This document shows, in pieces, positions 2,768 through 24,331 of a stretch of DNA of 64,000 bases (positions are counted from its first letter, which is position 1; every line of letters starts with the position of its first letter). Below the pieces are notes generated by a model that made no database searches, was not told the origin of the DNA, and saw only the letters and a list, made by a program, of their open reading frames with translations. This DNA is from Micromonospora profundi. GTDB taxonomy: Bacteria; Actinomycetota; Actinomycetes; Mycobacteriales; Micromonosporaceae. Both the position numbers and the translations under genes were made by a program. Location: contig NZ_JAATJK010000001.1 of assembly GCF_011927785.1 (NCBI RefSeq), positions 3,348,001 through 3,412,000 of the forward strand, written 5' to 3'.

Positions 2768-5700
2768 ATGTCCCGACCCGCCCTCGTCTCTCTTCCCGAC
2801 CCGGCCCTGGGGGCGGATGATGTGCCGCTCAGTGACTCGTTAGTCGCCGAACTCGGCAAGCAGGGTTGGCGGGTCGGCGACGACCCGCTGCGGTTGCGCT
2901 GGTTGCGGCTCGCGGCGTGTCACTCAACGTTCTTGTACGAAGTTGGCCGGGTGCCGATCTCACCCGCCGCGCTGGCGGTACTGGGCAAGGTGGGCTCCAC
3001 CCATCTGGCGCTCGCGGTGGCCGACCTGGTCGTGGAGCGCACCCGTCCAGACAAGGTCAGCAAACAGAATCAGCTCATAGCGCACATGCCCGGACGCGTC
3101 GCCCGGCGTGTCGCCGACAACCTGACCGTCGTCGATTCAATGAACCTGGGCAAGGGTGAGGAGCCGAACCGGCGGAGTACGTCGCGCCTGGCTGAGGACG
3201 TCAACCACCAGGTCCTTGGTGTGGTGGTGCTCCTCGGCGGTTACGCCACCGTCAAGCGGCTGGTGGCAGAGGTCTACGAGCAGGCACTTCAGCAGGTGCT
3301 CATGGACGGCGTCAATTGGTGGGCTGAACTGACTCGCTCCGTCCCGGTTCAGCAGCTCAGTGTCCAGGACCATCCAACGGGCCCGGATCATCAGCGGACC
3401 TTCATCTGGGAGATCGTTGACGACCGGGGACGGCGGGGTCGCGGTGAGTCCGCGAAGCGAGCCGGCGCGAAGGATCTGGCAGTCCAGGACTACCTACGCA
3501 ACGCTGGCCTCTACCGTGAGGTCGTTACGCGCCTCGGCGGACGCTCGGTCTCGCGGCTCACGGAGGCGCCCCTTCACTACCCACCGGGGCAGGGCCCACC
3601 AAACCGCACAGTCGCCGAACTCGCTACCACGCTCCAGATCACTCAGGATCGCCGGGCTTATTTGCAGCAAGCTCTCACCCACAAGTCATGGGCTTACGAG
3701 AACCAGTCGTTGGTCCGCCAGGCCAGACAGAACGACTACGAACTACTGGCCAACCACGGGTCGTACGCCATCAGGGCGGTGTCGGCGGCGGAGTTCACCC
3801 GCGACCTGCTCTCCCGCACGCTCAAACCCGAAGCCGAGGAGGCGGCGATCCATTCGCTGCCAGAGCGCTGTTACGTCGACATGTTCGACAGGCTCGTGCC
3901 GGAATCGGCCGTGCTCCGCGGTCAGGGTGAGGCCGACTGCAAGCCCCGCATGAAGGCTGATGTCTTCCAAGCGATCGTCTCGGTCGCGTGGCAGTTCGGC
4001 GAAGCCGGCCTGCCGGCGACGCTGCGAGGCTGGATACTTCGGGAGACCCTTGCGCAGGGGCTCGACGAGTTGAGCCGGCTGGAGCGCCTTTGTGCGACCT
4101 TCGGTGGCGAGGCATCCTCTACCTCTACCTCCGCCGGGCCTGCGCACGATTCCCGTTCCACGGCCACCCTTACCGTCCGTATCGGCGAGCTTGAACTCGT
4201 GCGGACCGGCCCTCCAACGCGGGGGAAGAAGGAGAGCACCCGACTGGCCGCAGAGCGGTTGTACCAACTCTTCACCCTGGGACCGGAATTCCGGGCCGCC
4301 GTCGGGACAACCGCAGAGCGGGAAGAGAGCATGCTGCTCCTGCAGTGCCTGGCTCGGCGTCTGCCGGTACTGCGCGGCCGCGATCTCCGGCGTTGTATCG
4401 AGGACGGGGTTCTAGGGCTGGGTCTGCTGGCCACCTCGGGTGACGAGCCCGACGACTTCCTCGCGTGGGCGGAGGAGGTTGACTCGCTGACCGGCCCGCT
4501 GGACGACGACCTCTTCGACCATCTGGTGACCGCCTACGGCAACGCTGTGAAGGCACGGCCGCGGCCGAAGCTGGAGCAGGCGTTGAGGGATCTGGCGACC
4601 TGGGTGCGGGCTATCGACCCGGAAGGCAGCGTCGTAGTTCGGAAGGCACCCCACTGGCACCTCCTTTTGGCGGTAGCCGGCGCATTACGGGCCGGCGCCG
4701 CCAGAGAACAGAAGGCGGTAGACGAGCTCGCCAACTCCTGGCCGGTCTCAGGCCCCGATTCGACGTCACTCCTCTTCGCCGTCGACGCCGCCGCCATCGG
4801 TGAATTGCTCCGGGAAATGCCTGCCCAGTCCGCCAAAACGGTCCGCTTCCGACGGCTTCCCGGCGGGGTCCGGGTTGAATGCACCAGCACGGCCACGGGC
4901 ACGGCCGACCGCGTCCGCACCCTGATCGACCTGCTCGCGGAGATGGCGCCGGAGCTTGGAGTCTCCGCCGGAGCGGGCACGCAGACACTGAGCGCCCCCT
5001 ACTCCCCCGACCCTGCCGACCGATCCTTCACGGCGGCCGGCCGGCTCGCATTTCACGGCCCCCAGGACCAGAACGGCTTCGAGATCTTGGCGAACGTGCT
5101 GCACCGGCTCAAGAACGAGTTGATCGGCATGGAAGACGTCGCGCAGAAGGCGGCGCTGGCCCGCGACCGGGTGACGCGCTTACACCGGCTCGCCGATGCC
5201 GCCCGGCACCACGAGGCCGCAGTCCGCCTGGCCGACCATCTGGACCACACCAACCGCGCGCTGGCGGATGCCGACGAAGAGGCGGTCCAGTTCGGCCGCT
5301 GGATCGATGAGTACTGCGCCGCCAAGGTCCTGGAAATCAAAGAGATGGAGAACATACGCCTGATCGCGCCCGCCGAGTCCGGCCATTGTGAGGTCACCCT
5401 CTCGCCGTCGCTGCTGCGGGGAGTTCTGGACAACCTCATCAAGAACGCTGTCGAGGCGATGCCGAACGGCGGCCGGATCATCGTCGACTGGTACACCGAG
5501 CCAGGCCATCTGTTCCTCGTCGTGCACGACGACGGCCCTGGGCTGTCCGACGAGATTCGCGAGAGGTTCTGGCGGGACGAGACTGTGACGAGCACCAAGG
5601 TGCATGGCTCGGGCATGGGGTTGTGGCTGGTACGCATGGACCTACGCCGGCTGGGCGCAACGATCTCCGATGACCCCGGGGCGGACGGCCAGCGCTGGAT

Positions 5701-6982
5701 CATCGACCTGCCATGCGAGGACGTGACAGATTCCGACGCGCCCGACCGCAAGCCCACCCCGACCCCAGTGCCACTGGTGGGGGCGGGTCCCCGACGCAAA
5801 GTCCGGGTGTTGCTCGTGGACGACCAAGAGAACGTCGCCCGTACGATGGCCGGACACCTCGAGCCGATTGCCGCCCAGATCGAGATCGCTCACGACGGCG
5901 AGAGCGCACTGACCAGGCTTGGTACCGGACATTACGACGTCGTGATTTCCGACCTACAGATGCCGCCCGATACCTGGGGTGGGTTATGGCTGCTAAGGCG
6001 CATCCGGGAGGAGGGTCACCGGGTGCCGGTGGTAGTGCTTTCCGGCGAGGGAGGCTTTGACCAGGCGAGAGTGGCTATCAACGCGGGCGCCGTCAAGTAC
6101 GTGACCAAGGCGGACGCCGCCGAGGAACTGGTCGTCATTGTCGAGGAGGTTCTGGCTGATCTAAGCCGGAAAAGCCGCCGTGATCTGCAGGATTTACCAC
6201 TGCCGGTGGCGCTCGGTTTGCAGCGCTACGAGTCGGAGACGGTGGCCAACCTGCGACTACGCGCCGGCCATGCGGCCGTGGAAGACACCCTCCGGTTCAT
6301 CGGCGCGGTCGGGCTCGGCGAGCTTCTAAACGACGACCCAGAGGCGCGGGTGCCTCGGCCGGTGCTGGCGCCACACATGATGCTGGGTAAGTGGGTTGAT
6401 CTGCTGAAGGCGCTCGGCACGCGGCTAACGCAGGACTCGTATGCGGGACAGGTCATCCGCAGTCTCGACCTGGACGCGCTCGCCGTCGTGAAGACCGGCC
6501 GCAACGTGGTCAGCCACCGCTCTGAGCGCCCCAACAAAGAGGTGACCCGCATGCTCGACGAGGTCGACCCGCTGTTGGAGCAATTCGCCGCAGCCCTGCG
6601 TCACATCCCGGGCCGCACCGTGATGATCGCCGATGCCCTGCGACTCAATTCAAAACGATATGTGGTTTCCACGTTCCGGATGACCGGCACTGGTCCGGTT
6701 CTGCCAAGTGCCAAGTTGACCAGCAGCACTTCCCCCGAGGAGAACTCGGTCGGCCTATACCGGGCTGGCGTGGACTCCTGGATCCCGATCGGCCCGTGGA
6801 TGACGGCCCGACCCGGCAAGGGCCGGGGCGAGTGGCAGGTCTCGGTCATCGACGGTGTCACCCCGGGGTCCCGGGGCCGGCCTACGAAGCTGGCCTACCA
6901 ACCCTTCGGTGACGGCGAGAAATGGGAGACGGAAGCTGACGAGGACACCGACCAACTGATCCGTCGGTCGACGGCCCGATAG
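2768..6982 (+). CDS. Tandem degenerate RNase III / dsRBD / histidine kinase / receiver / HEPN-like fusion protein
   Basis: Residues are counted from a possible TTG start at 2741; the ATG at 2768 is residue 10 and has GGAGG 11 bases upstream. Domain 1 (about 50-190) aligns by pattern with RNase III (LGKGE at 136-140, then a late helix ADVNHQVLG-type). A dsRNA-binding-domain-like segment follows (about 192-252: GPDHQRTFIWEIV, then GRGESAKRAGAKDLAV). Domain 2 (about 295-440) has the RNase III opening ALTHKSWAYENQ and KPRMKADVFQAIVSVAW. A second dsRBD-like tail ends in GKKESTRLAAERL (495-507). Both RNase III copies lack the EFLGD catalytic box. Then come a helical region, a histidine kinase core (H788 in LHRLKNEL; N-box DNLIKNAVEAM; DDGPGL; GSGMGL) and a receiver (D1071 in VISDLQMPP, K1119). 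Last is a helical domain with RNVVSH (1254-1259), the Rx4H pattern of HEPN RNases, followed by a beta-rich tail. Inferred role: an RNA-sensing phosphorelay that controls a toxic RNase, probably in phage defence. Confidence 0.75.
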   Translation: MSRPALVSLPDPALGADDVPLSDSLVAELGKQGWRVGDDPLRLRWLRLAACHSTFLYEVGRVPISPAALAVLGKVGSTHLALAVADLVVERTRPDKVSKQNQLIAHMPGRVARRVADNLTVVDSMNLGKGEEPNRRSTSRLAEDVNHQVLGVVVLLGGYATVKRLVAEVYEQALQQVLMDGVNWWAELTRSVPVQQLSVQDHPTGPDHQRTFIWEIVDDRGRRGRGESAKRAGAKDLAVQDYLRNAGLYREVVTRLGGRSVSRLTEAPLHYPPGQGPPNRTVAELATTLQITQDRRAYLQQALTHKSWAYENQSLVRQARQNDYELLANHGSYAIRAVSAAEFTRDLLSRTLKPEAEEAAIHSLPERCYVDMFDRLVPESAVLRGQGEADCKPRMKADVFQAIVSVAWQFGEAGLPATLRGWILRETLAQGLDELSRLERLCATFGGEASSTSTSAGPAHDSRSTATLTVRIGELELVRTGPPTRGKKESTRLAAERLYQLFTLGPEFRAAVGTTAEREESMLLLQCLARRLPVLRGRDLRRCIEDGVLGLGLLATSGDEPDDFLAWAEEVDSLTGPLDDDLFDHLVTAYGNAVKARPRPKLEQALRDLATWVRAIDPEGSVVVRKAPHWHLLLAVAGALRAGAAREQKAVDELANSWPVSGPDSTSLLFAVDAAAIGELLREMPAQSAKTVRFRRLPGGVRVECTSTATGTADRVRTLIDLLAEMAPELGVSAGAGTQTLSAPYSPDPADRSFTAAGRLAFHGPQDQNGFEILANVLHRLKNELIGMEDVAQKAALARDRVTRLHRLADAARHHEAAVRLADHLDHTNRALADADEEAVQFGRWIDEYCAAKVLEIKEMENIRLIAPAESGHCEVTLSPSLLRGVLDNLIKNAVEAMPNGGRIIVDWYTEPGHLFLVVHDDGPGLSDEIRERFWRDETVTSTKVHGSGMGLWLVRMDLRRLGATISDDPGADGQRWIIDLPCEDVTDSDAPDRKPTPTPVPLVGAGPRRKVRVLLVDDQENVARTMAGHLEPIAAQIEIAHDGESALTRLGTGHYDVVISDLQMPPDTWGGLWLLRRIREEGHRVPVVVLSGEGGFDQARVAINAGAVKYVTKADAAEELVVIVEEVLADLSRKSRRDLQDLPLPVALGLQRYESETVANLRLRAGHAAVEDTLRFIGAVGLGELLNDDPEARVPRPVLAPHMMLGKWVDLLKALGTRLTQDSYAGQVIRSLDLDALAVVKTGRNVVSHRSERPNKEVTRMLDEVDPLLEQFAAALRHIPGRTVMIADALRLNSKRYVVSTFRMTGTGPVLPSAKLTSSTSPEENSVGLYRAGVDSWIPIGPWMTARPGKGRGEWQVSVIDGVTPGSRGRPTKLAYQPFGDGEKWETEADEDTDQLIRRSTAR

Positions 6983-7242: not shown

Positions 7243-10200
7243 TCACCAGACAGCAACGCCGAGCAACATGAGATCGTCTGCACCATTATCCAACGGCGCT
7301 CCGGCTATCGGCTGCAGGCCCGCCCCGACCACACCGTCGGCATCGCGTCGGAGCCAGAGCCGCCCCACCGCGGCGTCGCCATCACGGCGGGCGAGGACGA
7401 CACGGCCTTCGTACAGGTCGAGTTGCCCGGAGGTGACCGGCTCGAAGACCTCGCCGGGCGCCTCCGTCACCAGGAATCGGCGAGTCGCGCCAAGCGCGGG
7501 CCCGACGTCCGAGAGCGATACCCGCAGCGCTCCGACGGGCGCCTGGTCGTGCTTGCCGAGGAGACGGCTGAGCACGTCCGCGGCCACGCCGCGACGTAGC
7601 TGCTCGTGGTAGCGCTCGTTGCGGAACACCCGCAGGCAGCGGTAGCAGCTGGTCTCCGGGCCGCATTCACAGTCGCGGACCCGCTGCAGGGCCTGGTCGA
7701 GTACGTCCCGCAGTCGCTCAGCGATGCGCCGGACGTGGCCGGCTCCTCCGGGCACGGTGTCGTAGAGCATGATCACGCTGCGGCCAGCTTCGGTTCGGTA
7801 GACCGTCGCGTCGATGTCGTCGCGGGAGATCTCGAGCGCGCGCACTGCACCCTCGACTAGCGCGTACGCGACCGATCGCCAGGCGTTGTCCTCGACTCCG
7901 ATCACGACCGCACCGTCGAAGCTCAGGTCGAGGACGTCCGTCTGATATTTGTGGGCCAGCGACAGGTTCTCCATGCGGCCACGGCACTCGCGGCCGCTGA
8001 GTGGACTCTGGTGGTCAACCCGACCGTCGATAGCCCGGTTGGCGAAGCCACAGGTCGCGCAGACGAGGAAGCCGCGTCCCATCGCGCCGTCGCTGATTGC
8101 CACCAGCTCGCCCCGGGCACCGGCCCGGATGGTGATCGCGCCTCCGGCGAGGTCCAACTTGTCCGCGTAGAGCTCGGCGCCGGGCGAAACGACGTGGGTT
8201 GCGCCGTGCCAGGCCCGTCGCGGCGCACTGGTGGGTCGCCGGCCGGTACCGCGTGCCGCGACGAACCCGAAGACGGGAATGGCGTACTGACGGGGTACGC
8301 CGACGAGGGCCGAGCCGCAGGCCGGGCACTCCTGGTCGAGGCGGTCGATCGAGTCGCGGTAGTGGCCGCATCCGTCGCACACCGCGTAGTAGCGTCGCTC
8401 AAGGTCGCGCCCGGGCAGCCGGTACAGGCCGGCCGACTGCCAGACCAATCCCCCGGCGACGACCTCCGCACCGGGTGCGTACTCGTAGATGGCCGACGAG
8501 AGGTCTCGGGAAAGCTCTAGTTGCTTGGCGATGGGGGCGTCCGCGAAGGCCAGCCGCAGCTCGACGGTGTCGACGGGAAATCCGTACTTTGGCAGGACGT
8601 TTCGGTTGGCGAGCAACCCGAGCAGTTCGCGGCGAGTGATCGTGTTCATCACGCGGCCGTACCGCGCGGCCTTGTCGTCCTGCCGGGCAGCGAAGGCCTC
8701 CTGCCGCTTCTGCTCGTACGTGTCGACATCCTGCTGCAGCTCGGCCCGGACCGACTCCAGCAGGTCAACCAGGTGCTCGACCCATTCTTCGGAGTCGACG
8801 CCGATGATGTCGCGCACCTCGGCCGGCAGCACTTGCCGCAGCGAGTCGGTGACCTGCGGCGGCACCGGTGTAAGGAAGTCGCGGACCAACGTGACCGGGG
8901 CGATCCCGTTGTCACCTGGCAGGAAGAACTCCCCTGCCGTACGCCAGATGGTGCCGTGAAACCGAAATTGCTGCCGGAAGAACGCAGCGAGCGCGACGGA
9001 GTGGGCATGCCGCCGATCGATGCGCACGTTGGTCAGGGGCACGTACGGCGCCCGGACCTCCCCGGCGATCATCCGGTCGGGCTCGGCGAAACGGGAGAGG
9101 TCATGCGAGCGGCGCTGGGCATAGGTGAGCACGAGCGCGGCTGAATCGGTTCGGCGGCCGGCCCGACCGGCTCGCTGGACGTAGTTCGCGGTGGTCGGAG
9201 GCATGTTGCGCAGCATGACGGCTTGCAGCTCACCGACGTCGACGCCGAGTTCGAACGTGGTGGAGCAGGAGAGAGCGTTGACTTCGCCGCGGACGAACTG
9301 CTGCTGGATTTCGGCGGCTCGTTCGCTGGTCCACTGGGCGGTGTGTTCGAGTACGCGTAGCGGCACCGGGTTCATGTCGCGGTAGACATTGCGGTAGTGG
9401 TCCGGGTCGATGTCCGCCGCAGGGGACGTCCAGGATTCGAGGTCACCGGTGCAGGCGATGGTGGGGCAGGTGGCGCGCACGTTGAACGGGGTGAGCTTGC
9501 GGCACCTGCTGCACTGCCACATGCTCAGGCCGCCGGCCGTAGGCGTGCAGGTGATCAGGGCGGAGTCGAGCTGGTGGACCTGTCCGATGCCGGGCTCGGT
9601 GCCGGCGATCAGCCACTCGGCCTGTGGCCCCTTGGTCAGCAGGCGCCACACACCCTCCAGCACCTGGATCGGGTCCGCCTGCCGGTCGAGCCGAGCCAGC
9701 ACGCGGGTCACGAAGTCGGCCCGCCGGTTGGTCCCCCTGGTCGGCAGCCAGCTGAGCACCTTGCGGCGTGCGTCGGAGCCGGTGCCGCGTACGTAGATCG
9801 GGCCGAGCCGCGGCTGGAACGCCTCGTCGCGGGGGTCCACGCCGTCGAGGGCACCGACGGCGCCCTGGAGCCGAATCGATCGGATCAACTCGGCGAGCAA
9901 CGCCCAGACCTCCTCGTCGCTGAGGCCGAGGGCGAGCAGCGGCTGGGGCGGTAGCCAGGCGGGGTCGCGGGACATGTCCCAGGCGATGAGTCCTCTGCCT
10001 TCCAGGGAGTTGCGTTCGTCGACGCCGACGGCCTCGATCTGTGCCCAGAGGGCGACTTGCCTCTCCCGGGCCTGTCGGCTCTGCTTCCGTTCGAAGATGC
10101 CGTACCGGTCGGCTACTCGGGAGGTGTGGTAAACGACGTCGGTGAGGCGGACCTCGTCGTCGGCGGCGGCAGCGGCGACGGCACCCTCGTGGAGCAGTCG

Positions 10201-12171
10201 CCGGCGCTGCACCCGTTCGTAGGAGTCTTCGAGGTACGGCGCGAAGTACGCCGCAGACTGCCGGCTGTCGCTGAACAGCAGCAGCTTGCGTCCGCCGCCT
10301 CGTAGGCCTCGCTGGATGGGGTCGGAGGCCACGGGCAGCTTCTGATAGAGGGCGGTCGCCAGGACCGAGGCGGAGGCTTCGTTGCCGCTGGCGAAGAGCC
10401 GGATCAGGCCGGCTCCGCGCCCGCCGCACGAGAGGCATGCCGTGAGCTCGTCGCTGCGCTGCCGTAGGAAACGTACGGCCCGCATGGCGCCGTCTGGGCA
10501 GCGCGGGCAGTTGGTCGCCTTACCGATCTGGAACACCCCGCACCGGGTGCACAGCGCGCCCAGTTCGCCGGCCGCTTGGGCAGCGCCGCTGAACATCTCC
10601 TCGTCCTCGTCGGTTGCCACTTCGTCGACCAGCGCCATCCACACCTGCTGCTCGTCGCGGGAGCGGCGGGACCGGAACACGGTGAAGGTGCCGACCCGCT
10701 CCAGCGTGCCCATGAGGTAGACGGTGCCGCAGCGGCGGCAGGTGCCGAATTCGAAGGCGGCGTCGCCGCACCGTCCGCAGCGCTCGTGCCGGGTCAGACT
10801 GACGTGCGGGCCGTTGGCTCCGAGGCAGGCGAAAGCTCCTTCCGTCGCGCGGGCGAAGAGGTGGTAGCGGGCGGAGAGCACCGGGGTGCCGTCCTTGTCG
10901 TGCACGCTGTTGGCCAGGGCGACCATCGACGCGGTCTCGGACGCGCCGCTACCGGGGAACAGTGCCTGGGCGACCTCGTGCAGCGGTATCGGCCCGTGGG
11001 CGAGTAGCGCCTTGAGCCGGCGAACGCGCTGCTCGTACGCCAGCGCCTCGGCGGGGTCGTCCCCGGTGTACCCGTGCTCGCGGGCGAGGGCCACGACGGC
11101 GCCAGCGGGTTCCGGCGCGTTGAGCAGCTTCTCGTACGCCGTGGCGGGCAGGGGTCCCCACTCGGGCCCGGGTGGCAGCTGGACCCTGTCGGCGGTGATG
11201 ACGTCCTGCCTCGCGTCATCGGCGGGGTCGTACTCGAAGGGGACGGGGAAGAGGGAGGCAGCGAAGTCGACCACGGCGGACATGTCGCTACCGACGGTTG
11301 CGCTCGTCGCGATGCACTGCACCGGCCGGCCCGAATCCACCCGGTCGGCGAGTCGGCGCAGCAGCATCGCCAGTTCGGCCCCGCGAGCCCCGTCGTAGAC
11401 GTGCGCCTCGTCGACGACAATGAACTGCCAGTGCCCGGCGTGCTCACCCTCGAAGAGGTCCATGTCCAAGGGCCGCAGCAGCAGGTATTCGAGCATGGCG
11501 TAGTTGGTCAGCAGGAGGTGCGGCGGTCGCTGCTGCATCTCCTCCCGGCTGAGCAGTTCGTTGGGCAGCGGCTGCTCGCCAGGGTTCTGCTGCTCGAAGA
11601 CCTCCGCGGCCTCCCGGCGACTGCGGCGGGTCTCGCCCGTGTACCGGCCGAAGGTGATGTCCGGTGCCTCGGCCAGCAGGCCCCGCAGCCGCTTCATCTG
11701 ATCGTTGGCCAGCGCGTTCATCGGGTACAGCAGCAGCGCCCGCACGCCGGGTCCGAGGGTGCCCGCCGCCCGTTCGGCCATCAGTCGGCTCAGGATGGGG
11801 ATGAGGAAGCTCTCGGTCTTGCCGGATCCGGTGCCGGTGGCGACGACGATGTTGCGCCCTGCGGTTGCCTTCCGGATCGCCCGCTCCTGGTGTTGGTAGA
11901 GCGGACGGTCCATGGCCAGCCCGGCGCCCAGGCTGGCGATGCCGGGGTCGAGCACGCCCGCGTCGATGAGCTGACGGGGTGTGGCGCTGGTGACGTAGGG
12001 CGGGGTCGCCTCGAGCAGTGGTCCCTTGGTGATTTCCTGGTTGATCGCGTCGCCGATCGCAGTTTCGAGCGCGGTCGCGAGCCGGGGATCCTTCGGCTCC
12101 ACGAGGGAACGTAGATAGCGCCGGTAGGTGGAGACGATCGCGTCGCTGGTGGCGAGGGGGTCGAGGATCAT
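7243..12171 (-). CDS. DUF1998-type DEAD/DEAH helicase (DruE-like)
   Basis: A 1642-aa superfamily 2 helicase from the ATG at 12171, which overlaps the stop of the upstream gene by ATGA; a longer open frame upstream is antisense noise. Walker A ATGTGSGKT at about 111-119, DEAH at 254-257, SAT at 290-292. A motif VI region with RAGRAGRRTDSAA lies past the middle. Four cysteine pairs form zinc-ribbon-like knuckles (CGRCGD with CRRCGT; CTRCGV with CPRC; CDGCGH with CPACGS; CATCGF). The C-terminus carries the DUF1998 signature (YDTVPGGAGHVRRI, then CECGPETSCYRCLRVFRNE). Helicases of this size and layout include Druantia DruE and related defence helicases. It is the last gene of a four-gene minus-strand cassette and probably translocates on DNA or RNA for an anti-phage complex. 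Confidence 0.88.
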   Translation of the reverse strand: MILDPLATSDAIVSTYRRYLRSLVEPKDPRLATALETAIGDAINQEITKGPLLEATPPYVTSATPRQLIDAGVLDPGIASLGAGLAMDRPLYQHQERAIRKATAGRNIVVATGTGSGKTESFLIPILSRLMAERAAGTLGPGVRALLLYPMNALANDQMKRLRGLLAEAPDITFGRYTGETRRSRREAAEVFEQQNPGEQPLPNELLSREEMQQRPPHLLLTNYAMLEYLLLRPLDMDLFEGEHAGHWQFIVVDEAHVYDGARGAELAMLLRRLADRVDSGRPVQCIATSATVGSDMSAVVDFAASLFPVPFEYDPADDARQDVITADRVQLPPGPEWGPLPATAYEKLLNAPEPAGAVVALAREHGYTGDDPAEALAYEQRVRRLKALLAHGPIPLHEVAQALFPGSGASETASMVALANSVHDKDGTPVLSARYHLFARATEGAFACLGANGPHVSLTRHERCGRCGDAAFEFGTCRRCGTVYLMGTLERVGTFTVFRSRRSRDEQQVWMALVDEVATDEDEEMFSGAAQAAGELGALCTRCGVFQIGKATNCPRCPDGAMRAVRFLRQRSDELTACLSCGGRGAGLIRLFASGNEASASVLATALYQKLPVASDPIQRGLRGGGRKLLLFSDSRQSAAYFAPYLEDSYERVQRRRLLHEGAVAAAAADDEVRLTDVVYHTSRVADRYGIFERKQSRQARERQVALWAQIEAVGVDERNSLEGRGLIAWDMSRDPAWLPPQPLLALGLSDEEVWALLAELIRSIRLQGAVGALDGVDPRDEAFQPRLGPIYVRGTGSDARRKVLSWLPTRGTNRRADFVTRVLARLDRQADPIQVLEGVWRLLTKGPQAEWLIAGTEPGIGQVHQLDSALITCTPTAGGLSMWQCSRCRKLTPFNVRATCPTIACTGDLESWTSPAADIDPDHYRNVYRDMNPVPLRVLEHTAQWTSERAAEIQQQFVRGEVNALSCSTTFELGVDVGELQAVMLRNMPPTTANYVQRAGRAGRRTDSAALVLTYAQRRSHDLSRFAEPDRMIAGEVRAPYVPLTNVRIDRRHAHSVALAAFFRQQFRFHGTIWRTAGEFFLPGDNGIAPVTLVRDFLTPVPPQVTDSLRQVLPAEVRDIIGVDSEEWVEHLVDLLESVRAELQQDVDTYEQKRQEAFAARQDDKAARYGRVMNTITRRELLGLLANRNVLPKYGFPVDTVELRLAFADAPIAKQLELSRDLSSAIYEYAPGAEVVAGGLVWQSAGLYRLPGRDLERRYYAVCDGCGHYRDSIDRLDQECPACGSALVGVPRQYAIPVFGFVAARGTGRRPTSAPRRAWHGATHVVSPGAELYADKLDLAGGAITIRAGARGELVAISDGAMGRGFLVCATCGFANRAIDGRVDHQSPLSGRECRGRMENLSLAHKYQTDVLDLSFDGAVVIGVEDNAWRSVAYALVEGAVRALEISRDDIDATVYRTEAGRSVIMLYDTVPGGAGHVRRIAERLRDVLDQALQRVRDCECGPETSCYRCLRVFRNERYHEQLRRGVAADVLSRLLGKHDQAPVGALRVSLSDVGPALGATRRFLVTEAPGEVFEPVTSGQLDLYEGRVVLARRDGDAAVGRLWLRRDADGVVGAGLQPIAGAPLDNGADDLMLLGVAVW

Positions 12172-15100
12172 TCGGCTGCTCCGGCTCCGGTCAGGAGGAA
12201 CTCCGCGAGGAGAAGGTCGATGGCGACGAGGCGGGGTGCGCTGCGGGCGAGGGTCGCGTGTAGGGGAAGGATTCGTGGCAGCAGCCCGGCCGGGGCCGCG
12301 TGCCCTCGGGCGGCCAGCCGCGCCACGAAGGCGAACGCCAGCGACAGCGCGGGGAGAGCGAGCCACCCTCGAGTCGGGTTGCGGGCCTGCAGCGCGGCCG
12401 CCGCCTGCGGCCCACCGCAATCGACCAAGGGCTTTTGCAGGGCGCGCAGTAGCCCCTCCGCGTTGCTGGAGAGCCGTCCCAGGCCGGGCCGCACCCGTAC
12501 CTCGAACAGGTGGCGGGCCGCAACCATCCGTTCGTCGGCGTCGAGCAGGCCGCCGGGAACGACGCGCATCGCCCGCCACACCCGGTCGCGTTCCGCAGCC
12601 GGGAGCAACGCGAACACCTCGGCCGACTGGTCGAACCTGCCGACCGTCTCGTACGGATCGGGACCGCCGGCGAGCAGGTGCGTTGCCACCTCCCCGCACG
12701 CCGCGGCGATCTGTTCGCCCAGGTCGGCGTGCGATGCGATGTCAGGCAGCCGGTGGGCCGAGGCGAGCATTGCGGCCAGCGGGCTCGCCGTCCAGAGCCG
12801 CGCCTCGTCGGTCGCACTGACGTACCTGTCGGGAGGCAGGGCGATCAGACCGGAGTGCACCAGGGGCGCGACCACCTGGTCAGCCGAGGCGCGGTGTTTG
12901 GTGAGCGCGGCCAGCGCGGCGGCGGGATGCGGGCGCAGGAGCGCCGCGGCGCCCCGGATGTTGGCCGTGACACCTCGCGTACGGAGGTCGTCCGCGCGCG
13001 GGTAAATGTCGAACAGCAGCGGCGCGATGTCCGGTAGGTCGGGCAGGGCAGCTGCTCCGGCCAGGTACGCCGACACTGCCTCACCCGCCGGGTCCTGGCC
13101 GGTCGGCTGCCACTTCAGCTCGGCGAGGTCGAAGGCGTTGTCGCGGCCGGGCCACTCCGGCCAGTCCGACGGCAACCAGGGATCCTCGATGCGCAGCAGC
13201 GCCACGAGGGGCCCCGCCGTGGTGACCCGCGTGGGGAGCGGGTCGCTGACCAGGTCCTCGCTGAGGCGCGCGAGGTACGGCGGTTCCCACGGCGCGTACA
13301 CCTGGTACAGCGCGGCCGTCAGCCCCTCGGCCCGCACGCCGTCGACCAGCACCAGCCGGTCGTCCTCGAGGTGCACCGCGCTGGCGAGGCGTCGAGGCAC
13401 GCAGCGCGCTGCCGGGAAGTCCTGCCCGTCAAAGCGGACGTCGAGCTGGGCGAGCCCGTGGGCGCCGACCGTGTCGGCGATGGCCGCGAGCCCAAACCGG
13501 GCCATCGGCTGCCCGTAGGTGTCTCCGGACGGAACGGTTTGCAGCTCACGGCCCCCGGACCGGACGATCAGCCGTGCGTCCGCCGCCCGCGGCAGCCGCA
13601 CCAGCAGTTCACCCTCGCCGATGGTCTCGGTGTCCAGGCGCAGTGGCTGCAGCGACCATTCGCCACGGCTGCCGGCTCCCAGCCGTTGGAGCGCCATGTG
13701 GGCGGGCGTGACCCGTACGGTGGTCGCGCCGCCCGGGCTGTGGAGCTGCAGTTCGACAGCGGTGTCGGCGGGGCCTAGGTGGGTCATTGGGGGCGTTACC
13801 GACAGGTCGGGCAGGGTGGCCTGGGCTCCTACGGTGGCCGGTTCCAGCCCGTCCGCCGTGATCTCTCGCCAGGCGGGGTGGGAGATGACGGACAGCCCTT
13901 CGGCGAACTCCAGCGTGCGGGCGAGGCCGCGGCCGAGCGGACCTCGAACGGTGATCTCGTAGGCGCCGACCAATGGGCGGGCAAGGTCCCGCCACGGGTC
14001 GACCGTCGTGTCGTGGTTGGAAGAGAGGCTCTCGGTGTGCAGGAGCTGACCGGAGCCGGGTCGACGGATCCGGATCGACCAGTCGGTGCTCACGCCGGGC
14101 TCGGTCGGCAGGGTCAGCCGTGGGGCCGTCGCGATGACTGGTCCGCCGGCGAGGCTGCTCACTCCGGGCAATGGCTGAGCGAGTTGCAGTTGGGCGCGGC
14201 GGGCACCCTTGACCCGGCGCGGTACTCCGCCGCCAAGCCGCAGCTGCGACACCTGACGAAGGTCGGCGCGACGCAGCGTCCAGCCGAGCCAGCCATACGG
14301 GGCCGGCACGTCGTACGTGTCGACCAAGTCGCCATCCACCTGCAGCTCGAGCGGCCCACCGCCGTCGCTCTCTTGCGGGTACAGCAACCAGACCGGCTCG
14401 GGCGGAAGGCCGGTGGTTGCCGGCACCCGTCGGCCGTCCTCGGTGAAGACCAACAGGGGATCCCGCGGGTCAACAACGTCCAGCTCGTACTCCTGGTCGT
14501 AGCCGGCCAACTCGACAGTCACCTGACGTGCGGGGCGTGCGATGGCTACCACCGTTGCGGGTGCCGTCTCGCTGGTGCCAGGCCAGCGGGACTGGCTGAC
14601 GACCGATTCGACCTCGCCGTCGAAGCGCAACTGCCACATGACGCGACCGTCCGGTGCGTCATGGACCGGCGGCAGCCACACCATCAGGCCTCGGCCGAAC
14701 GGCTCCAACTCCAGGTGAGGTCGCTGCGGCGCCGCCTGCGCGGCCGACCCGCCGCGCTCCGAGCTGCCTGTCCAGTCGAGCTGCTCCGCCTCCGCGAGCG
14801 CCTGAGCTCTTTCGATCACGTGTGGGGAGAGTCCGAGTCCGTCGGCGGTGAACCCCGGCTGCCGCAGCCGTTCCAACAGGTCGAGGCAGCGGTCGACAAG
14901 GTCCGCGGCGTAGTCCTCGCCGCGTTGGATGAACCGCTGCACCGGCTTGTCGGTCCCGTTCAGGCGCGACTCCCGGCCGGGCGCGAGCGCCCAGGCGAGA
15001 AAGCTCTCGCCAGTGAGTCCGGGCTCGCGGGCCTGGCGGTGCAGGAGGAGATTCAAAAGGTCACCGAGGCAGTACGCGGGGACCCCGGCATGCATGAGGA

Positions 15101-15479
15101 TCTCACCGACGTAGACCTGCGGCAGACCAGGGAACCGGGCCAGCCGGAAGTGGTCGAGGTTCAGGCGGAAGGCCCTCCCCCAGAACGTTTGGTCGATCTG
15201 GCCCGGCGCCTCGTTGTGGACGGCGCTCCAGTAGTCGCCGTGCTCGTACCCGACGGCACCGAGCCCGGCCAGTCCGACGACCAAGCACGCGGGGTAATGA
15301 CGGGTGAGCAGCCGCTGTCGGTCGAGGGGGGCACTGAGCCAAAAGACTCGTCCCAGGGCGCGGATGGCCTCTTTGGCGTGGTCCTCCGGTGCATCAATCT
15401 CGGCGACCAGCGACACCGCGCGCAGGGCTGGCGCCCACTCGTCTTCCCGGAGCCGAAGTATCTCGGATGCGTGTGACAC
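12168..15479 (-). CDS. Large unknown partner of the DUF1998 helicase (DruH-like by context)
   Basis: 1103 aa from the GTG at 15479, which has GAGGGAG 3-8 bases upstream. The upstream part of the open frame runs antisense through a gap and the next gene and is rejected. The N-terminal third is helical (LREDEWAPALRAVSLVAEI; GFTADGLGLSPHVIERAQAL). The middle (about 300-720) is beta-rich with repeated Ig-like strands (VELQLHSPGGATTVRVTP; YEITVRGPLGRGLARTLEF). The C-terminal third is helical again. No nuclease or ATPase motif was found. Its stop overlaps the helicase start (ATGA), so the two are translationally coupled. A large uncharacterised protein next to a DUF1998 helicase is the arrangement of Druantia type III (druH-druE); homology to DruH was not established here. 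Confidence 0.7.
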   Translation of the reverse strand: MSHASEILRLREDEWAPALRAVSLVAEIDAPEDHAKEAIRALGRVFWLSAPLDRQRLLTRHYPACLVVGLAGLGAVGYEHGDYWSAVHNEAPGQIDQTFWGRAFRLNLDHFRLARFPGLPQVYVGEILMHAGVPAYCLGDLLNLLLHRQAREPGLTGESFLAWALAPGRESRLNGTDKPVQRFIQRGEDYAADLVDRCLDLLERLRQPGFTADGLGLSPHVIERAQALAEAEQLDWTGSSERGGSAAQAAPQRPHLELEPFGRGLMVWLPPVHDAPDGRVMWQLRFDGEVESVVSQSRWPGTSETAPATVVAIARPARQVTVELAGYDQEYELDVVDPRDPLLVFTEDGRRVPATTGLPPEPVWLLYPQESDGGGPLELQVDGDLVDTYDVPAPYGWLGWTLRRADLRQVSQLRLGGGVPRRVKGARRAQLQLAQPLPGVSSLAGGPVIATAPRLTLPTEPGVSTDWSIRIRRPGSGQLLHTESLSSNHDTTVDPWRDLARPLVGAYEITVRGPLGRGLARTLEFAEGLSVISHPAWREITADGLEPATVGAQATLPDLSVTPPMTHLGPADTAVELQLHSPGGATTVRVTPAHMALQRLGAGSRGEWSLQPLRLDTETIGEGELLVRLPRAADARLIVRSGGRELQTVPSGDTYGQPMARFGLAAIADTVGAHGLAQLDVRFDGQDFPAARCVPRRLASAVHLEDDRLVLVDGVRAEGLTAALYQVYAPWEPPYLARLSEDLVSDPLPTRVTTAGPLVALLRIEDPWLPSDWPEWPGRDNAFDLAELKWQPTGQDPAGEAVSAYLAGAAALPDLPDIAPLLFDIYPRADDLRTRGVTANIRGAAALLRPHPAAALAALTKHRASADQVVAPLVHSGLIALPPDRYVSATDEARLWTASPLAAMLASAHRLPDIASHADLGEQIAAACGEVATHLLAGGPDPYETVGRFDQSAEVFALLPAAERDRVWRAMRVVPGGLLDADERMVAARHLFEVRVRPGLGRLSSNAEGLLRALQKPLVDCGGPQAAAALQARNPTRGWLALPALSLAFAFVARLAARGHAAPAGLLPRILPLHATLARSAPRLVAIDLLLAEFLLTGAGAAE

Positions 15480-15735
15480 GGTCTCCCTCTTGTGGATTGG
15501 GGTGGTCAGCGCGGTAGGGCGACTATGCAAGCAAGCCAAGGCGTCTTCAAGACCAAACCAGCGCCTCAGCGTCCGCCCTGCCCGATCGGTCACTGAGGTG
15601 GAACCGGTCGGCGGCACCGGTGGACAGGTCAGATAGGACGCCGCCCCACTCAGGGGAGTGAGAAGTGGCGGCGTTGACTTCGCCCGACTGGCGGGCCGGT
15701 CACCTGGCGGGCAGGTGGCCGGCCCGGCACTCGGA
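15480..15735. other. Intergenic gap inside the helicase cassette
   Basis: 256 bases between two same-strand genes, with no supportable frame. It contains the GAGGGAG ribosome binding site of the 1103-aa gene at its left end. A separate promoter for the downstream pair is possible but no clear -35/-10 was identified. Confidence 0.35.
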
Positions 15736-16140
15736 TCACTGGATGGCAGGCGCGTCAGGCCGGGACGCCTTCGGGTCGGCGGGGCCCGCCAGCTCGAGTT
15801 GGGGTAGCAGTGCGGTGACGTCCTGGTGCCAGCCGCGGAGCTCTGCGACCGTGGGTGCGAGTTCATAGGTGTGGTGGTGCATCGCGCGCGACAGGCCGTG
15901 CCAGGCGGTGCGCGCCGTCGAGGCTGCCTCGGCACCGGCGAAGGTGGGCAGAACGAGCAGTTGGTTGCGCATGGGGCGGTCGACGACGGAGGGGGCGACC
16001 CGATCCCAGTAGTGCCGCAGCCCTTGTTCGAGGGCGAGGCGGGTCAGGCAGGCGGATCCCCGTTGCCAGCAGCGGCGCATGCTGGACGGCGGGTGCAACA
16101 GCAGCGCACTGGCAGCGCTCAGATACGTGTGTGGGCTCAC
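15736..16140 (-). CDS. Small helical protein of the helicase cassette
   Basis: 134 aa, GTG start at 16140 overlapping the stop of the ATPase gene by GTGA (16137-16140), so it is translationally coupled to it. The protein is mostly helical: SAASALLLHPPSSMRRCWQR, RTAWHGLSRAMHHHTYELAP and a C-terminal VTALLPQLELAG. It has no metal-binding or catalytic motif I can recognise. Its fixed position between the SMC-like ATPase and the 1103-aa protein suggests a structural or adaptor subunit. No family assigned. Confidence 0.65.
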   Translation of the reverse strand: MSPHTYLSAASALLLHPPSSMRRCWQRGSACLTRLALEQGLRHYWDRVAPSVVDRPMRNQLLVLPTFAGAEAASTARTAWHGLSRAMHHHTYELAPTVAELRGWHQDVTALLPQLELAGPADPKASRPDAPAIQ

Positions 16141-18602
16141 GGCTGACTCAGCCTCCCCACGACCGCACGTGCGTCGGACACGAGCCCGGCAAGGTCGCCG
16201 GAGCTCCCGCCGTGGGCACCACGGTTGGCGAAGGCGACCACCCGTCGGGCTGCGGGGTGCAGCCGCTCCAGCGGCTGGTTCAACTCTTTGCCGGCCCGCC
16301 GGTGATCCGACAGGAGCGTCAGCGCGAGGGTCGGTCGCAGGCCATGCGCCTCGCTGATCGCCGCCTCGGTCTCCGCGATCGGCAGCCCGGCCCGGAAGTC
16401 ACGGGTACGGATCCGCTCGTGACAGGTGAATTCGAGGGCGTCGCGGATCAGGTTGCAGACGACCGGGCGGCGGACCTCGTCGGCCATGTCGTCGTCGCGA
16501 ACGATGGCCGCCGCGTCGTCGAGGTAACGCCGGGCGGGGTCGCCGTGCGCGTCACCGGTGACGGTGACCTGGGACTGCGCCAGCCTGCTAACGATGCGGA
16601 TCCGGGCGTCGAGCTGCAGGTGTCGCACTGCGGCCGGAAGGCGGTCATCGTGGGTGAACACGATGACCTGCCGCTGCTTCGCCACCTGGTCCAGGACCTT
16701 GGCCAGCCCGTACACCTTGGCCGGGTCCATGGACTGCACCGGGTCGTCGATGACGAGGAACCGGAACGGGCTCTCCGGCATCGTGGCACGCGGTAGGAAG
16801 AGCGCCAGGGCGAGCGAGTGCAGTTCGCCCTGGCTCATCACCCCCAGCGCCGCCCCGGGTACTCCGTCGACGTTTACCTTCAGGTCCACCCGCCGGTTGG
16901 TGCCGGTGCCGGCGAGTTGGATCGCGCCGAGGTCGACGTTGCTCTCCTGCCGCAGCGTGTTCCAGATCTCGGTCGCTTCCGCGGCCACCGGTGCGAGCTT
17001 GTCGTTGCGGATGCTCCCGCCAACCTTTTGCAGCCAGGTGACCGAGGCCTTCAGCGCCGTGAACATCTGGACGGACTGACGGCTCGCCTGCTCGGCGTCG
17101 ATCCAGGCGCGGATCTGGTCGGCGAGCGGCTGCCAGGCGGCCTGCCGGCGTTCGAGCGCCTGCCGTGCTGCCGCCTTGACCGGCTGCAGGACGGTGGTGA
17201 GCGCGTCGAAGGCGGCGAGCGCCGCCTCGGCGACCTTGTGCGAGTCGACCGACCCAACCAGCTCGTCCCAGTGCTGCCATCCGACCCGGGCGTCGCCGGT
17301 GTCCACCCCCTCGGCGGTGAGGTCGACGGCGAGTACGGACGGCAACTGGGGCAGCCAGGTTCGCAACGTACGGCGCGAACCCCGCTCGATCTCGTGGGCT
17401 TCGTCGAGGCGCTCGGCCCGCTCGGTGAGTCGTCGCAGCTGCGCTTGAGCCTGCTCGGCCCACGCCTCGTCCAGGGTGCGACCCCCGCACACTGGACAGG
17501 GCTGGCCCGGGTGGCTGTGGTGATGGCGCAGGGCGTCGCTCAGCAGCTTGGCGAGCGCCCGAGCTTCCTCCACCGGCGTGCCGGCCAAGTCGTCAATCTG
17601 TTGCAACGCCCCCCGGAGTCGCTCCAGCTCGCGTACCAGGGCGTCTCGTTCGGGAAGGCCGAGTACGTCGAGCTGGCGCAGCGGCACGAGGGTCGTGTCA
17701 CTGGTCGGCTCGTCAGCGGCGGCCAATGCCGCAAGCACGTCGAGGGCGGCGGCCTTGCCGCTGAGCGCCTGCTCGGCGCGGCGGGCGCGCGGGTCGGGGT
17801 GGGCGGCGAGCGCGGTCCGCAGCTGCGGCAACTGGGTGCCGGCCAGCTTTCGCTGGTCGTCCATCTCCTTACGCGCGGTCTTGAGCATGGTCTCAATCTC
17901 GACAAGGCGACCGAGGCCGAGGATGCGGTGCAGCGAGTCGTGCATCTCGCTGGGGCGGCCGCTGAGCAGCCCACCGAGTTCGGCGTAGGAGAGGAACGGC
18001 CGGTACAGCTCCAACGGCTGCGCCCATCCGAGGTCGGCAACCGACTGCCGGGGCTTACCAGCGATCTGCAGGAACGTCTTGCCATCGTTGAGCCCTGCCT
18101 CGGGCTCCCAGTCGCATTCGACGGTGGCACCATTGCGGTGGCCTTCGACCCCGAGTCGTACGTGGATGCGAGGGCTTTCGGTGGCGTGCAAGTTGCGCCA
18201 GCCCTCCTGCCAGACCGAGCTGCGGCCGGCCCACCGCTTGTTCTCACCGGTCATGGCGAACTCGGCGGCCTCGGCGAAGCTGGACTTACCCGAGCCGTTG
18301 CGACCGGTCACGATGGTCAGTCCCGGTCCGGGTACGAGGTTGAGCGTGGCGGTGGGTCCGATGCCGCGGAACCCGGTCACCTCGATGCTGGCGAGGTAGG
18401 TCCCGATCGGTTCCGGGGTTTCGGTGTCGGGCGATGGGGGTGTCGGTCGGCGCGGTGTCGCGCCGCCGAGCACCGAGGCGAGCTCGTCGCCGCCGAGCAG
18501 GGCGGCGATGACGAGGTCCTTGGCGGTCTCGGTCAGGTCGGAGTGGTCGAGGTGGTCGAGGATGAGCTGGTCAACGGTGTCGGCTTGAGGGTCGGTGCTC
18601 AT
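16137..18602 (-). CDS. SMC/RecF-like AAA ATPase with zinc-hook motif
   Basis: 821 aa from the ATG at 18602, with GAGGAGG 7 bases upstream; the 50 extra codons further upstream in frame are rejected. Walker A GRNGSGKSS at about 100-108, preceded by a typical FRGIG strand. A coiled-coil middle is broken by CPVCGG (369-374), the Rad50/SbcC-type hook. An ABC signature SQGELHSLALAL and a Walker B FLVIDDPVQSMDP at about 610-630 follow, then the D/H-loop VIVFTHDDRL. These are the hallmarks of DNA-end or DNA-loop sensing ATPases found with nucleases and helicases in defence loci. It is the first gene of the minus-strand cassette and is divergent from the HTH-methylase gene. Confidence 0.88.
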   Translation of the reverse strand: MSTDPQADTVDQLILDHLDHSDLTETAKDLVIAALLGGDELASVLGGATPRRPTPPSPDTETPEPIGTYLASIEVTGFRGIGPTATLNLVPGPGLTIVTGRNGSGKSSFAEAAEFAMTGENKRWAGRSSVWQEGWRNLHATESPRIHVRLGVEGHRNGATVECDWEPEAGLNDGKTFLQIAGKPRQSVADLGWAQPLELYRPFLSYAELGGLLSGRPSEMHDSLHRILGLGRLVEIETMLKTARKEMDDQRKLAGTQLPQLRTALAAHPDPRARRAEQALSGKAAALDVLAALAAADEPTSDTTLVPLRQLDVLGLPERDALVRELERLRGALQQIDDLAGTPVEEARALAKLLSDALRHHHSHPGQPCPVCGGRTLDEAWAEQAQAQLRRLTERAERLDEAHEIERGSRRTLRTWLPQLPSVLAVDLTAEGVDTGDARVGWQHWDELVGSVDSHKVAEAALAAFDALTTVLQPVKAAARQALERRQAAWQPLADQIRAWIDAEQASRQSVQMFTALKASVTWLQKVGGSIRNDKLAPVAAEATEIWNTLRQESNVDLGAIQLAGTGTNRRVDLKVNVDGVPGAALGVMSQGELHSLALALFLPRATMPESPFRFLVIDDPVQSMDPAKVYGLAKVLDQVAKQRQVIVFTHDDRLPAAVRHLQLDARIRIVSRLAQSQVTVTGDAHGDPARRYLDDAAAIVRDDDMADEVRRPVVCNLIRDALEFTCHERIRTRDFRAGLPIAETEAAISEAHGLRPTLALTLLSDHRRAGKELNQPLERLHPAARRVVAFANRGAHGGSSGDLAGLVSDARAVVGRLSQP

Positions 18603-18832
18603 GTGGTGCCTCCTCTCATGGGAGGGGGGCGAGTGGCCGCGCCGGAAGGCGGGGCAACTCGCTGCGTCGGCATGAGGAATCTGACCGGCCGGAAGGGCTG
18701 GGCCGGACATGAGGGTGGTGCGCCCGGGCGTCGACACCCGGACAGGAAGCATCGGCGGCAGCCGAGGTAAACCTCGACCCGCTCACTGAAAACGACACTA
18801 GCACACTCGGCACTGAAAGCTGTGTCAAACCG

Positions 18833-21021: not shown

Positions 21022-21086
21022 ACGCCATCCTGAACCTGACCCGACTCCCCCAGCCACCCCAGCACCTGCCCTTCGAAAGGACCCCG

Positions 21087-23135: not shown

Positions 23136-24325
23136 CGAAGTTGTTGCCGCTTAAACGTATTGCGCGGCTACAGTATGGCGAGTCTCTGGCGGCAGATCAG
23201 CGCGTCGACGGCGAGTACCCCGTCATGGGTTCCGGCGGCATCTCTGGCACACACCACCGCGCCAACTTCCGGGCCCCCGGAATTGTTGTCGGCCGCAAAG
23301 GTAGCTACGGGTCGATTCACTGGGCTTCAATCGACGGGTTCGCCATCGACACGGCCTACTACATTGACGGGAGTTGCACTTCGGCCCACCTGAGATGGCT
23401 ATACTACGCGCTCCAAGCTGTGGACCTGCGTGGAGTTTCTCAAGACGTCGGAGTGCCTGGCCTATCTCGCGAATCCGCTTACGCCGCCCTAATTCCGGCG
23501 GCACCCCCCCAGGAGCAGCGCCGAATCGCCGATTATCTCGACACCGAAACCGCTCTCATTGATGCGATGCAGTCAAGGACGAGGCGACAGATTGCAGCCC
23601 TGGTCGAACGCCTTAACGAGTCCGTTCGATTGGCGACATCGATTGGATCCGGCGCTCGCCGGAAAACCGGGATCGCGTGGATGCCTGAGATGAATGAACG
23701 GTGGCAACTCTTGAAAATCAGCCACGCCTTCAGAACAGGAAGCGGCACGACGCCCACCTCGGATCGATCCGAATACTTCGACGGCCCACACCCTTGGGTA
23801 AATAGCGCAGACCTTAATGACGGCGAAATAATAAGAACCGAAAAGTCGGTAACCACCGAAGCGCTGTCGGACTTTTCCAGCCTAAAGATCCATCCGGCGG
23901 GATCGCTTGTGGTGGCGTTGTACGGACAGGGCTCAACCAAAGGGAAGGTCGGAATTCTCCGAATCGATGCCTGCTTGAATCAGGCATGCTGCGCTTTGAT
24001 TCCCATCGGACCGATCTCCGAGGACTATGCTTCTTACTGGTTCCGCGGACACAAGCAGGGAATTGTTGGACTGGCGCTTGGGGCAGGGCAGCCGAACCTA
24101 AGCCAGGACCTCATCAGACAGCTCCGAATCCCTGCTCCCGACCGCCCAGAACAGGATCAGATCGTCGCAGAGCTGCACGAGCTCGAGGAGGAAACACGAA
24201 CCAAGTTGAAGCTTCTTCGCGCTAGAGAGCAGTTGCTCAGCGAACGGCGGGCAGCTCTGATCACCGCCGCTATTGCCGGCCAGATCGACATCTCCACCGC
24301 CAGCGGACGAGGAATCGAGGACTGA
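23132..24325 (+). CDS. hsdS: Type I restriction-modification specificity subunit HsdS
   Basis: 397 aa, GTG start overlapping the hsdM stop. The layout is classic: TRD1 (about 1-125, with VGRKGSYGSIHW), a long conserved helix (about 125-175, PPQEQRRIADYLDTETALI), TRD2 (about 185-335, with TGSGTTPTSDRSEYFDG and NQACCALIPIG) and a final helix (about 335-390, PEQDQIVAELHELEEET). The TRDs determine the two half-sites of the recognition sequence. Base composition drops visibly in the TRDs (for example 23700-24000), compared with the very GC-rich hsdM and hsdR. That is expected if the TRDs were exchanged horizontally. Confidence 0.94.
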   Translation: MTKLLPLKRIARLQYGESLAADQRVDGEYPVMGSGGISGTHHRANFRAPGIVVGRKGSYGSIHWASIDGFAIDTAYYIDGSCTSAHLRWLYYALQAVDLRGVSQDVGVPGLSRESAYAALIPAAPPQEQRRIADYLDTETALIDAMQSRTRRQIAALVERLNESVRLATSIGSGARRKTGIAWMPEMNERWQLLKISHAFRTGSGTTPTSDRSEYFDGPHPWVNSADLNDGEIIRTEKSVTTEALSDFSSLKIHPAGSLVVALYGQGSTKGKVGILRIDACLNQACCALIPIGPISEDYASYWFRGHKQGIVGLALGAGQPNLSQDLIRQLRIPAPDRPEQDQIVAELHELEEETRTKLKLLRAREQLLSERRAALITAAIAGQIDISTASGRGIED

Positions 24326-24331
24326 CGCGCC

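Follow-up and report, generated by a model that had tools for sequence, protein, structure and literature searches.

A degenerate tandem RNase III/dsRBD protein with histidine kinase, receiver and HEPN-like domains in Micromonospora profundi, a candidate RNA-triggered two-component defence system

Gene structure and domain layout

The stretch of DNA analysed here (the window) comprises 64,000 nucleotides of the Micromonospora profundi genome (6.93 Mb, one contig; assembly GCF_011927785.1, contig NZ_JAATJK010000001.1, positions 3,348,001 to 3,412,000). A single plus-strand frame within it extends from an ATG at 2768 to position 6982 and encodes a protein of 1404 amino acids, with a TTG at 2741 as alternative start. 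The original prediction, made from the letters of the window alone, had placed two degenerate RNase III/dsRBD modules, a kinase core, a receiver and a HEPN-like domain in one frame, and this order is confirmed in the one gene. Residues are counted here from the ATG; the prediction was numbered from the TTG, and subtraction of nine gives H779, D1062, R1245, N1246 and H1250. The gene and its parts, with positions E41, D45, D114 and E117 named after E. coli RNase III, are as follows:

2768..6982, + strand: whole gene, with dead tandem RNase III/dsRBD, linker, histidine kinase, receiver, HEPN and beta domain (open reading frame, Pfam and dN/dS)
2825..3307, + strand: RNase III-like domain 1, residues ~20-180, with S77 at the D45 position and H147 at the E117 position
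3308..3508, + strand: dsRBD 1, residues ~181-247, with a GPDH motif and a basic helix (GPDH in 25/26 aligned rows; alpha-beta-beta-beta-alpha in the model)
3599..4063, + strand: RNase III-like domain 2, residues ~278-432, with A328, S332 and Q401 at the E41, D45 and E117 positions (profile, alignment and model)
4064..4279, + strand: dsRBD 2, residues ~433-504, with a GPxH motif (GP-any-H in 23/26 rows, GxxH in 26/26; alpha-beta-beta-beta-alpha in the model)
4280..5059, + strand: linker, residues 505-764, a helical part followed by alpha-beta-beta-alpha-beta-beta (secondary structure of the model; alignment)
5060..5782, + strand: histidine-kinase core, residues 765-1005, with H-box LHRLKN, H779 (nucleotides 5102-5104) and HATPase_c at 881-968 (Pfam and alignment)
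5798..6157, + strand: receiver, residues 1011-1130, with predicted phospho-acceptor D1062 (nucleotides 5951-5953; Pfam and alignment)
6182..6613, + strand: very likely HEPN domain, residues 1139-1282, with E1172xxxR1176 in helix 2 and R1245-N1246-x3-H1250 at the end of helix 3 (alignment and model; family matches weak)
6614..6979, + strand: beta-rich C-terminal domain (model; present in all 16 aligned receiver-HEPN sequences)

The kinase core and the receiver with its intact Asp were recovered as predicted, with Pfam matches to HATPase_c (5.2e-13; 881-968) and Response_reg (5.9e-19; 1014-1125). The H-box, [LI]HxLKN or LHxIKN, occurs in 14/14 kinase-bearing rows, L079 included, and the receiver Asp is invariant in 16/16 receiver-HEPN sequences. 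Judged by its H-box, HATPase domain and receiver with a putative phospho-acceptor Asp, the protein appears to be a hybrid histidine kinase. Ribonucleas_3_3 was matched at 1.4e-6 over two stretches, under the gathering cut-off, and no dsRBD family of Pfam was matched in the window protein itself. The linker (505-764) is kept in kinase-less relatives as well. A pseudogene or frameshift artefact was considered and rejected on the basis of seven similar full-architecture relatives with 42-97% identity (P0002-P0006, P0008 and P0009) and of a ratio of nonsynonymous to synonymous substitution (dN/dS) of 0.17-0.49 across nine domains, calculated between the window gene and its M. phytophila orthologue (L022). 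No tRNA was found in the 64-kb window, and no Rfam RNA in window positions 1-20000.

The RNase III-like sensor and the HEPN-like output

Taken on sequence, the RNase III homology of the N-terminal sensor region is firm. A profile of the N-termini of five relatives matched M. tuberculosis RNase III at 2.3e-20 over both the RNase III domain and the dsRBD of copy 1, with T. maritima RNase III (1.4e-15) and C. jejuni RNase III (1.8e-12) also matched best over this copy, and copy 2 matched E. coli RNase III at 2.8e-6. The dsrm family (PF00035) scored above its cut-off in 4/5 relatives' sensor proteins scanned (L027, L037, L061 and L062); it did not in L063, where most of the first dsRBD is missing. 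A tree of both copies together with rnc is unrooted and gives the rnc group a support of only 78; the two copies may have arisen through duplication within the family or have been acquired separately.

Twenty-six sensors were aligned, and as these rows include near relatives they do not represent 26 independent cases. Left out of the alignments and counts were L031 and L038 (two frames), L039 (contig end), L025/L064 (internal deletion), L040 (the same locus as L057), L041 (Woesebacteria) and the partial plasmid matches L082 and L083. All four acidic residues (E41, D45, D114 and E117) are kept in 7/7 genuine rnc controls. Among the sensors, the E117 position is acidic in none of 52 cells (0/26 in each copy), being occupied by Q in 25/26 copy 2 rows and by R, L, H, M, S, K or A in copy 1, while the D45 position is acidic in a single cell (copy 1 of L072; 0/26 in copy 2). 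The loss is uneven at D114, where 6/26 copy 1 and 16/26 copy 2 rows are acidic; the E41 position is acidic in 14/26 copy 1 rows and in 0/26 copy 2 rows. L40 and G44 are retained in all 52 cells, and dsRNA-contact motifs of the dsRBDs persist, namely GPDH and most of the lysines. The catalytic box is thus missing from both copies, as originally proposed, and an active tandem RNase III was rejected on the loss of the D45 and E117 positions. In E. coli RNase III, the substitutions E117K, A or Q abolish cleavage with double-stranded RNA (dsRNA) binding kept, and binding is also kept in D45A (PMC8708148).

Fold prediction likewise returned RNase III and dsRBD folds for the N-terminal region. The 32 Foldseek matches of the sensor model at E<=1e-3 were all to RNase III, Dicer, Drosha or mitoribosome chains, the last of which we take to be RNase III relatives. 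The model (AlphaFold, pTM 0.63) superposes on fly Dicer-2 (7w0a) over 302 residues at 4.0 A and on Drosha (6lxe) over 286 residues at 3.7 A, and the two dead copies are predicted to pack as an intramolecular pair, as in Dicer and Drosha.

The model of the receiver and the region following it (400 residues; pLDDT 86.4, pTM 0.84) places helices after the receiver at 141-152, 156-185, 231-246 and 252-274 in model numbering, with an insert at 193-228 that includes three shorter helices. R241, N242 and H246 end helix 231-246, E168 and R172 lie in helix 156-185, and all five residues are invariant in 16/16 sequences, the relatives being 27-84% identical to the window protein. The 2013 survey PMC3710099 gives as hallmarks of active HEPN domains an Rx4-6H motif at the end of helix 3 with a polar residue after the R, and describes Ex3[KR] in helix 2 as common and inserts between helices 2 and 3 as frequent. 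Since the motif residues, helices and insert agree with all of these hallmarks, the domain is very likely, if not proven, to be HEPN, which upholds the reading of RNVVSH in the original prediction although database matches are weak. When the HEPN regions were shuffled 20,000 times, RN-x3-H arose in 182 cases; the looser R(x4-6)H is uninformative by itself, with 15,302 occurrences in 20,000. PADLOC gave only weak matches to two models among the 16 receiver-HEPN proteins, within the receiver part of the window protein.

Relatives, gene arrangements and neighbouring genes

Comparison of residues 1-500 with 5.8 billion proteins retrieved nine relatives. Seven share 76-94% identity over these residues, five of them named Micromonospora and one (P0007) ending early at 1118 amino acids, while a Catellatospora relative is 40% identical and a Streptomyces relative, which consists of the sensor part alone, 30%. 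In eight loci the architecture is split into two adjoining genes, encoding a sensor-kinase and a receiver-HEPN protein, which supports a phosphorelay and thereby strengthens the circuit from kinase to HEPN domain that had been conjectured from the window. Fused and two-gene types both occur within one genus (the window and G033). M. chaiyaphumensis is among the carriers of a two-gene pair. On a quick, unrooted tree of the 26 sensors, the four fused proteins form one group and the eight two-gene sensors another, with the 14 kinase-less sensors requiring two changes.

The kinase-less proteins differ in what accompanies the sensor. The kinase-less sensor at L063:8277-11576 has a CoiA_N match near its N-terminus (26.6 bits against a cut-off of 26.3, over 25 residues); here the dead RNase III pair is perhaps joined to another output. 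Twelve kinase-less proteins (L026, L027, L028, L029, L032, L033, L035, L037, L061, L080, L081 and P0010) have in common an N-terminal N[RH]WVG[IV] stretch, and this part matched no Pfam family in the three scanned (L027, L037 and L061).

Strong matches occur in 4/160 genomes of the genus and 9/397 of the order, one being a remnant in each case, and in 4/394 genomes of the class and 2/396 of the phylum, with the window's own genome included in all four counts. The cut-off for the order was E <= 1e-45, the next match (5e-23) falling within the range of host RNase III. Two peptide patterns, a scan that would miss distant relatives, identified 20 loci in a collection of 84,980 species, of which 19 are actinobacterial; L041 of Woesebacteria, with 24% identity over 33-237, is probably an ordinary RNase III. 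Plasmid matches were found in 7/72,556 records, two of them covering at least 80% of the sensor; five of the seven were read, with H5 and H7 left out. A phage-borne gene was considered and rejected, with no match among phages or viral contigs. The family is thus rare, patchy, confined here to Actinomycetes and partly plasmid-borne, and its members occupy accessory rather than core-genome positions. Neither of the two outcomes named in the original prediction as refuting it, another N-terminal fold or a core-genome setting, was therefore observed.

Variation was also observed among close relatives. In M. saelicesensis (G347; L064:10203-10238) approximately window positions 3119-5159 are missing and replaced by 36 other bases, with flanks 95-96% identical and the adjacent helicase frame at full length; by virtue of this internal deletion, the strain does without the gene. 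In G010 (L065:9405-9611) a 207-base remnant, 85% identical to the 3' end of the gene and the sequence downstream (window 6825-7030), is the trace of a lost copy, the rest of the window being unmatched there. In M. phytophila (L022), where the sensor is 88% and the helicase 95% identical to the window DNA, an extra gene of 616 amino acids (L022:14386-16236) lies between the two, at a point between window 7123 and 7153.

The island in the window continues downstream of the gene with two further gene groups, and it also holds a protein kinase along with the type I restriction system:

7243..18752, - strand: in a row, a DruE-like DUF1998/MZB helicase (frame of 1818 amino acids), a protein of 1255 amino acids and an SMC/LmuB-like ATPase (871 amino acids)
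18901..27511, + strand: type I restriction operon in which HsdS and HsdR are preceded by two N6-methyltransferase genes that differ from each other (706 and 791 amino acids)

The helicase matches DruE at 614 bits and the SMC-type ATPase resembles LmuB at 85 bits, while the protein of 1255 amino acids has no match in Pfam, NCBIfam or PADLOC; the row may possibly represent an undescribed Druantia/Lamassu-like cassette. Outside the window, DruE matches above 3000 bits were found only at L022 and L025/L064, all Micromonospora (the match at L028 is a helicase match of 53 bits), and the helicase was not found at the Catellatospora loci L023 and L024 or at the two-gene loci L036, L057-L060 and L062. 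Membership of a Druantia operon was therefore rejected, since among the loci compared the pairing of gene and helicase is limited to Micromonospora. The DUF1998 helicase noted in the original prediction is thus a neighbour in the island, as stated there, and no partner; a functional link to it is not supported.

Elsewhere, HsdM-HsdS-HsdR lie directly upstream of the sensor-kinase and receiver-HEPN genes on the same strand (L059:6276-16707); a DUF4145 domain lies close to the start of this HsdR. Among plasmid copies, L079 is flanked by recombinases and has a CHAT protein encoded upstream of it, the kinase-less L080 adjoins BREX genes, L081 is near a type ISP restriction enzyme, and L083, a short partial relative, is near a methyltransferase, helicase and DUF262 group. 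Five of ten neighbour proteins scanned lacked a Pfam match and five of ten a PADLOC match; with half of them unmatched, the defence context is suggestive and not uniform. Besides the family itself, no neighbour family recurs in more than three of 24 loci (simple gene calling, E<=1e-10), and the gene or gene pair thus looks self-sufficient. Related proteins of 1033 and 1072 amino acids were observed near distant loci (L023:17321-20422 and L057:5174-8392, respectively), the former matching nothing in Pfam or PADLOC.

Proposed mechanism, alternatives and significance

On balance, the gene probably encodes, in a single protein, a two-component defence system that is triggered by RNA and has a HEPN RNase as output. 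Receivers dimerise on phosphorylation and HEPN domains function as dimers. In the proposed sequence of events, structured or double-stranded RNA from a phage or other mobile element would be bound, uncut, by the dead Dicer/Drosha-like RNase III pair and the dsRBDs, and this binding would order or dimerise the sensor such that the kinase autophosphorylates on H779. The phosphate would then move to D1062 of the attached receiver, which once phosphorylated would pair two HEPN domains into an active RNase (R1245/H1250), whose degradation of RNA would arrest the infected cell. The proposal starts from what was observed here: the domain content, the pattern of residue loss and retention, a pseudodimer in the predicted model, the existence of two-gene loci and a patchy, partly plasmid-borne distribution. 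We infer RNA to be the ligand, the kinase to be activated rather than switched as a phosphatase, and the HEPN domains to dimerise through the receiver; phosphotransfer, RNase activity, toxicity and an anti-phage function or defence purpose would follow on the same reasoning.

Parts of this arrangement have counterparts in known systems. Two RNase III domains in one chain, forming a predicted intramolecular dimer, recall Dicer and Drosha, but both active sites are dead here, a kinase is attached and the closest sequence kinship is with bacterial RNase III. The order also differs, RNase III and dsRBD alternating twice, whereas in Dicer and Drosha the two RNase III domains precede a single dsRBD. 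Recognition of dsRNA, or pairing driven by a kinase, switches on a HEPN-family RNase in PKR, OAS-RNase L and Ire1; unlike these, which employ a Ser/Thr kinase or 2-5A in animals, the present protein has an apparent His-Asp phosphorelay, and homology is claimed only for the dsRBD and HEPN domains. Detocs has a receiver fused to its effector, and the domains here similarly seem to fit a phosphorelay controlling an effector. Two-component systems in defence are on record through Detocs (PMC11249213 and PMC9966839), a family of three-gene systems whose best-described effector is a PNP cleaving ATP (PMC11249213), whereas here there are one or two genes, the sensor is of the RNase III/dsRBD type and the output is HEPN. 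In PMC3710099, KEN is listed as a HEPN family and cyanobacterial HEPN-RNase III-dsRBD fusions are described as likely active two-headed RNases; these also join HEPN to RNase III and dsRBD, but the present copies are tandem and dead, with kinase and receiver between them and HEPN. CBASS CdnE03 senses a structured RNA of a phage (PMC10686824), as is proposed here for a bacterial defence trigger, but it is a cyclase acting with a cyclic-nucleotide effector and not a phosphorelay. CRISPR and CoCoNuT effectors include receivers without an associated kinase, or with a kinase only suggested (PMC11229360 and PMC11090510).

Several observations weigh against the proposed defence system. Kinase, receiver and HEPN domain are all absent from 14 of the 26 sensors in the tree, so that sensing is not always coupled to these. 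No viral or phage homologue appeared among the phages and viral contigs searched, defence neighbours vary between loci, and one of the five plasmid stretches read (L082) is without an obvious defence gene. In E. coli RNase III, E41A and D114A reduce dsRNA binding (PMC8708148); as copy 2 carries A at the E41 position in 25/26 rows, not every lost residue favours binding. With regard to the output, Pfam matches are weak, with 4/16 members matching HEPN_MAE_28990 (best 0.086), 2/16 HEPN_RiboL-PSP (best 4.7e-4, below cut-off) and one each HEPN_Swt1 and DUF4145. Single members also match DnaA_N (0.021), GUN4_N and others, such non-HEPN families scoring like most HEPN ones, and the window protein itself matches no HEPN family in Pfam. 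With hhalign, a HEPN_RiboL-PSP set aligned over 34 columns that surround the motif (P 0.0022, probability 13%), and a wider set gave P 0.0048 (probability 7%), with controls at P 0.1 and 0.39. The HEPN profile had no match among PDB sequences, and the fold search with the receiver-HEPN model was filled by receivers.

Three other explanations were weighed. A regulator of host RNA turnover, whose relay would be activated by structured RNA of the cell (precursors of rRNA or tRNA, antisense duplexes or RNase III substrates left unprocessed) and whose HEPN domain would trim or degrade RNA in response to stress, would fit the anatomy equally well and the dN/dS below 0.5 in every domain. Mitoribosomal chains and maize RNC1, dead RNase III relatives, serve housekeeping RNA roles, which favours such a regulator and counts against defence. 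RNC1 is described as a dead relative in PMC8708148. However, a housekeeping function is difficult to reconcile with the few genomes of the genus that carry the gene, one only as a remnant, with the internal deletion in M. saelicesensis and the relatives on plasmids, and with the several loci that adjoin defence or recombinase genes, and this explanation is considered rather unlikely. An integrated decoy, in which the dead copies bind no particular RNA, mimic host RNase III and fire the chain when a phage protein attacks or inhibits the bait, is quite improbable: the copies are dead in all rows compared and, fused to a signalling chain, resemble the integrated decoys of plants, but the kept GPDH motif and dsRBD lysines would be unneeded in a protein bait. 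Marginally more improbable still is a HEPN-like domain that serves as a non-nuclease dimerisation or binding module with protein-protein or transcriptional signalling as output, for which the HEPN matches no better than those of some unrelated families and the additional C-terminal beta domain speak, but against which E, R, N and H are invariant in 16/16 sequences down to about 20% identity and positioned as in active HEPN domains.

The RNA-triggered defence system thus remains the favoured explanation. Neither a kinase that senses through a dead tandem RNase III nor an effector that joins a receiver to HEPN was found described in open-licence papers (subscription papers and most preprints lie outside this scope), in keeping with the earlier remark that no system of this architecture had been characterised, and the sensor may deserve a category of its own. 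More tentatively, and with somewhat less than an even chance, the system could be the bacterial equivalent of the dsRNA alarm of animals, with its Dicer-shaped dead pseudodimer as the first dsRNA receptor known for a His-Asp phosphorelay and with receiver phosphorylation setting HEPN RNase pairing. The sensor would then be a reusable immune receptor of Actinomycetes, with outputs including HEPN (fused or separate), perhaps a CoiA-type domain, and the N-terminal NRWVGIV domain. Few signalling chains are as common in bacteria as two-component systems, and a phosphorelay listening to RNA through a dead RNase III would, if true, mean that bacteria have converted the RNase III/Dicer scaffold from a cutting tool to a receptor, in parallel to PKR and RNase L. 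Which RNA pattern marks infection in bacteria would then become testable with one purified protein.

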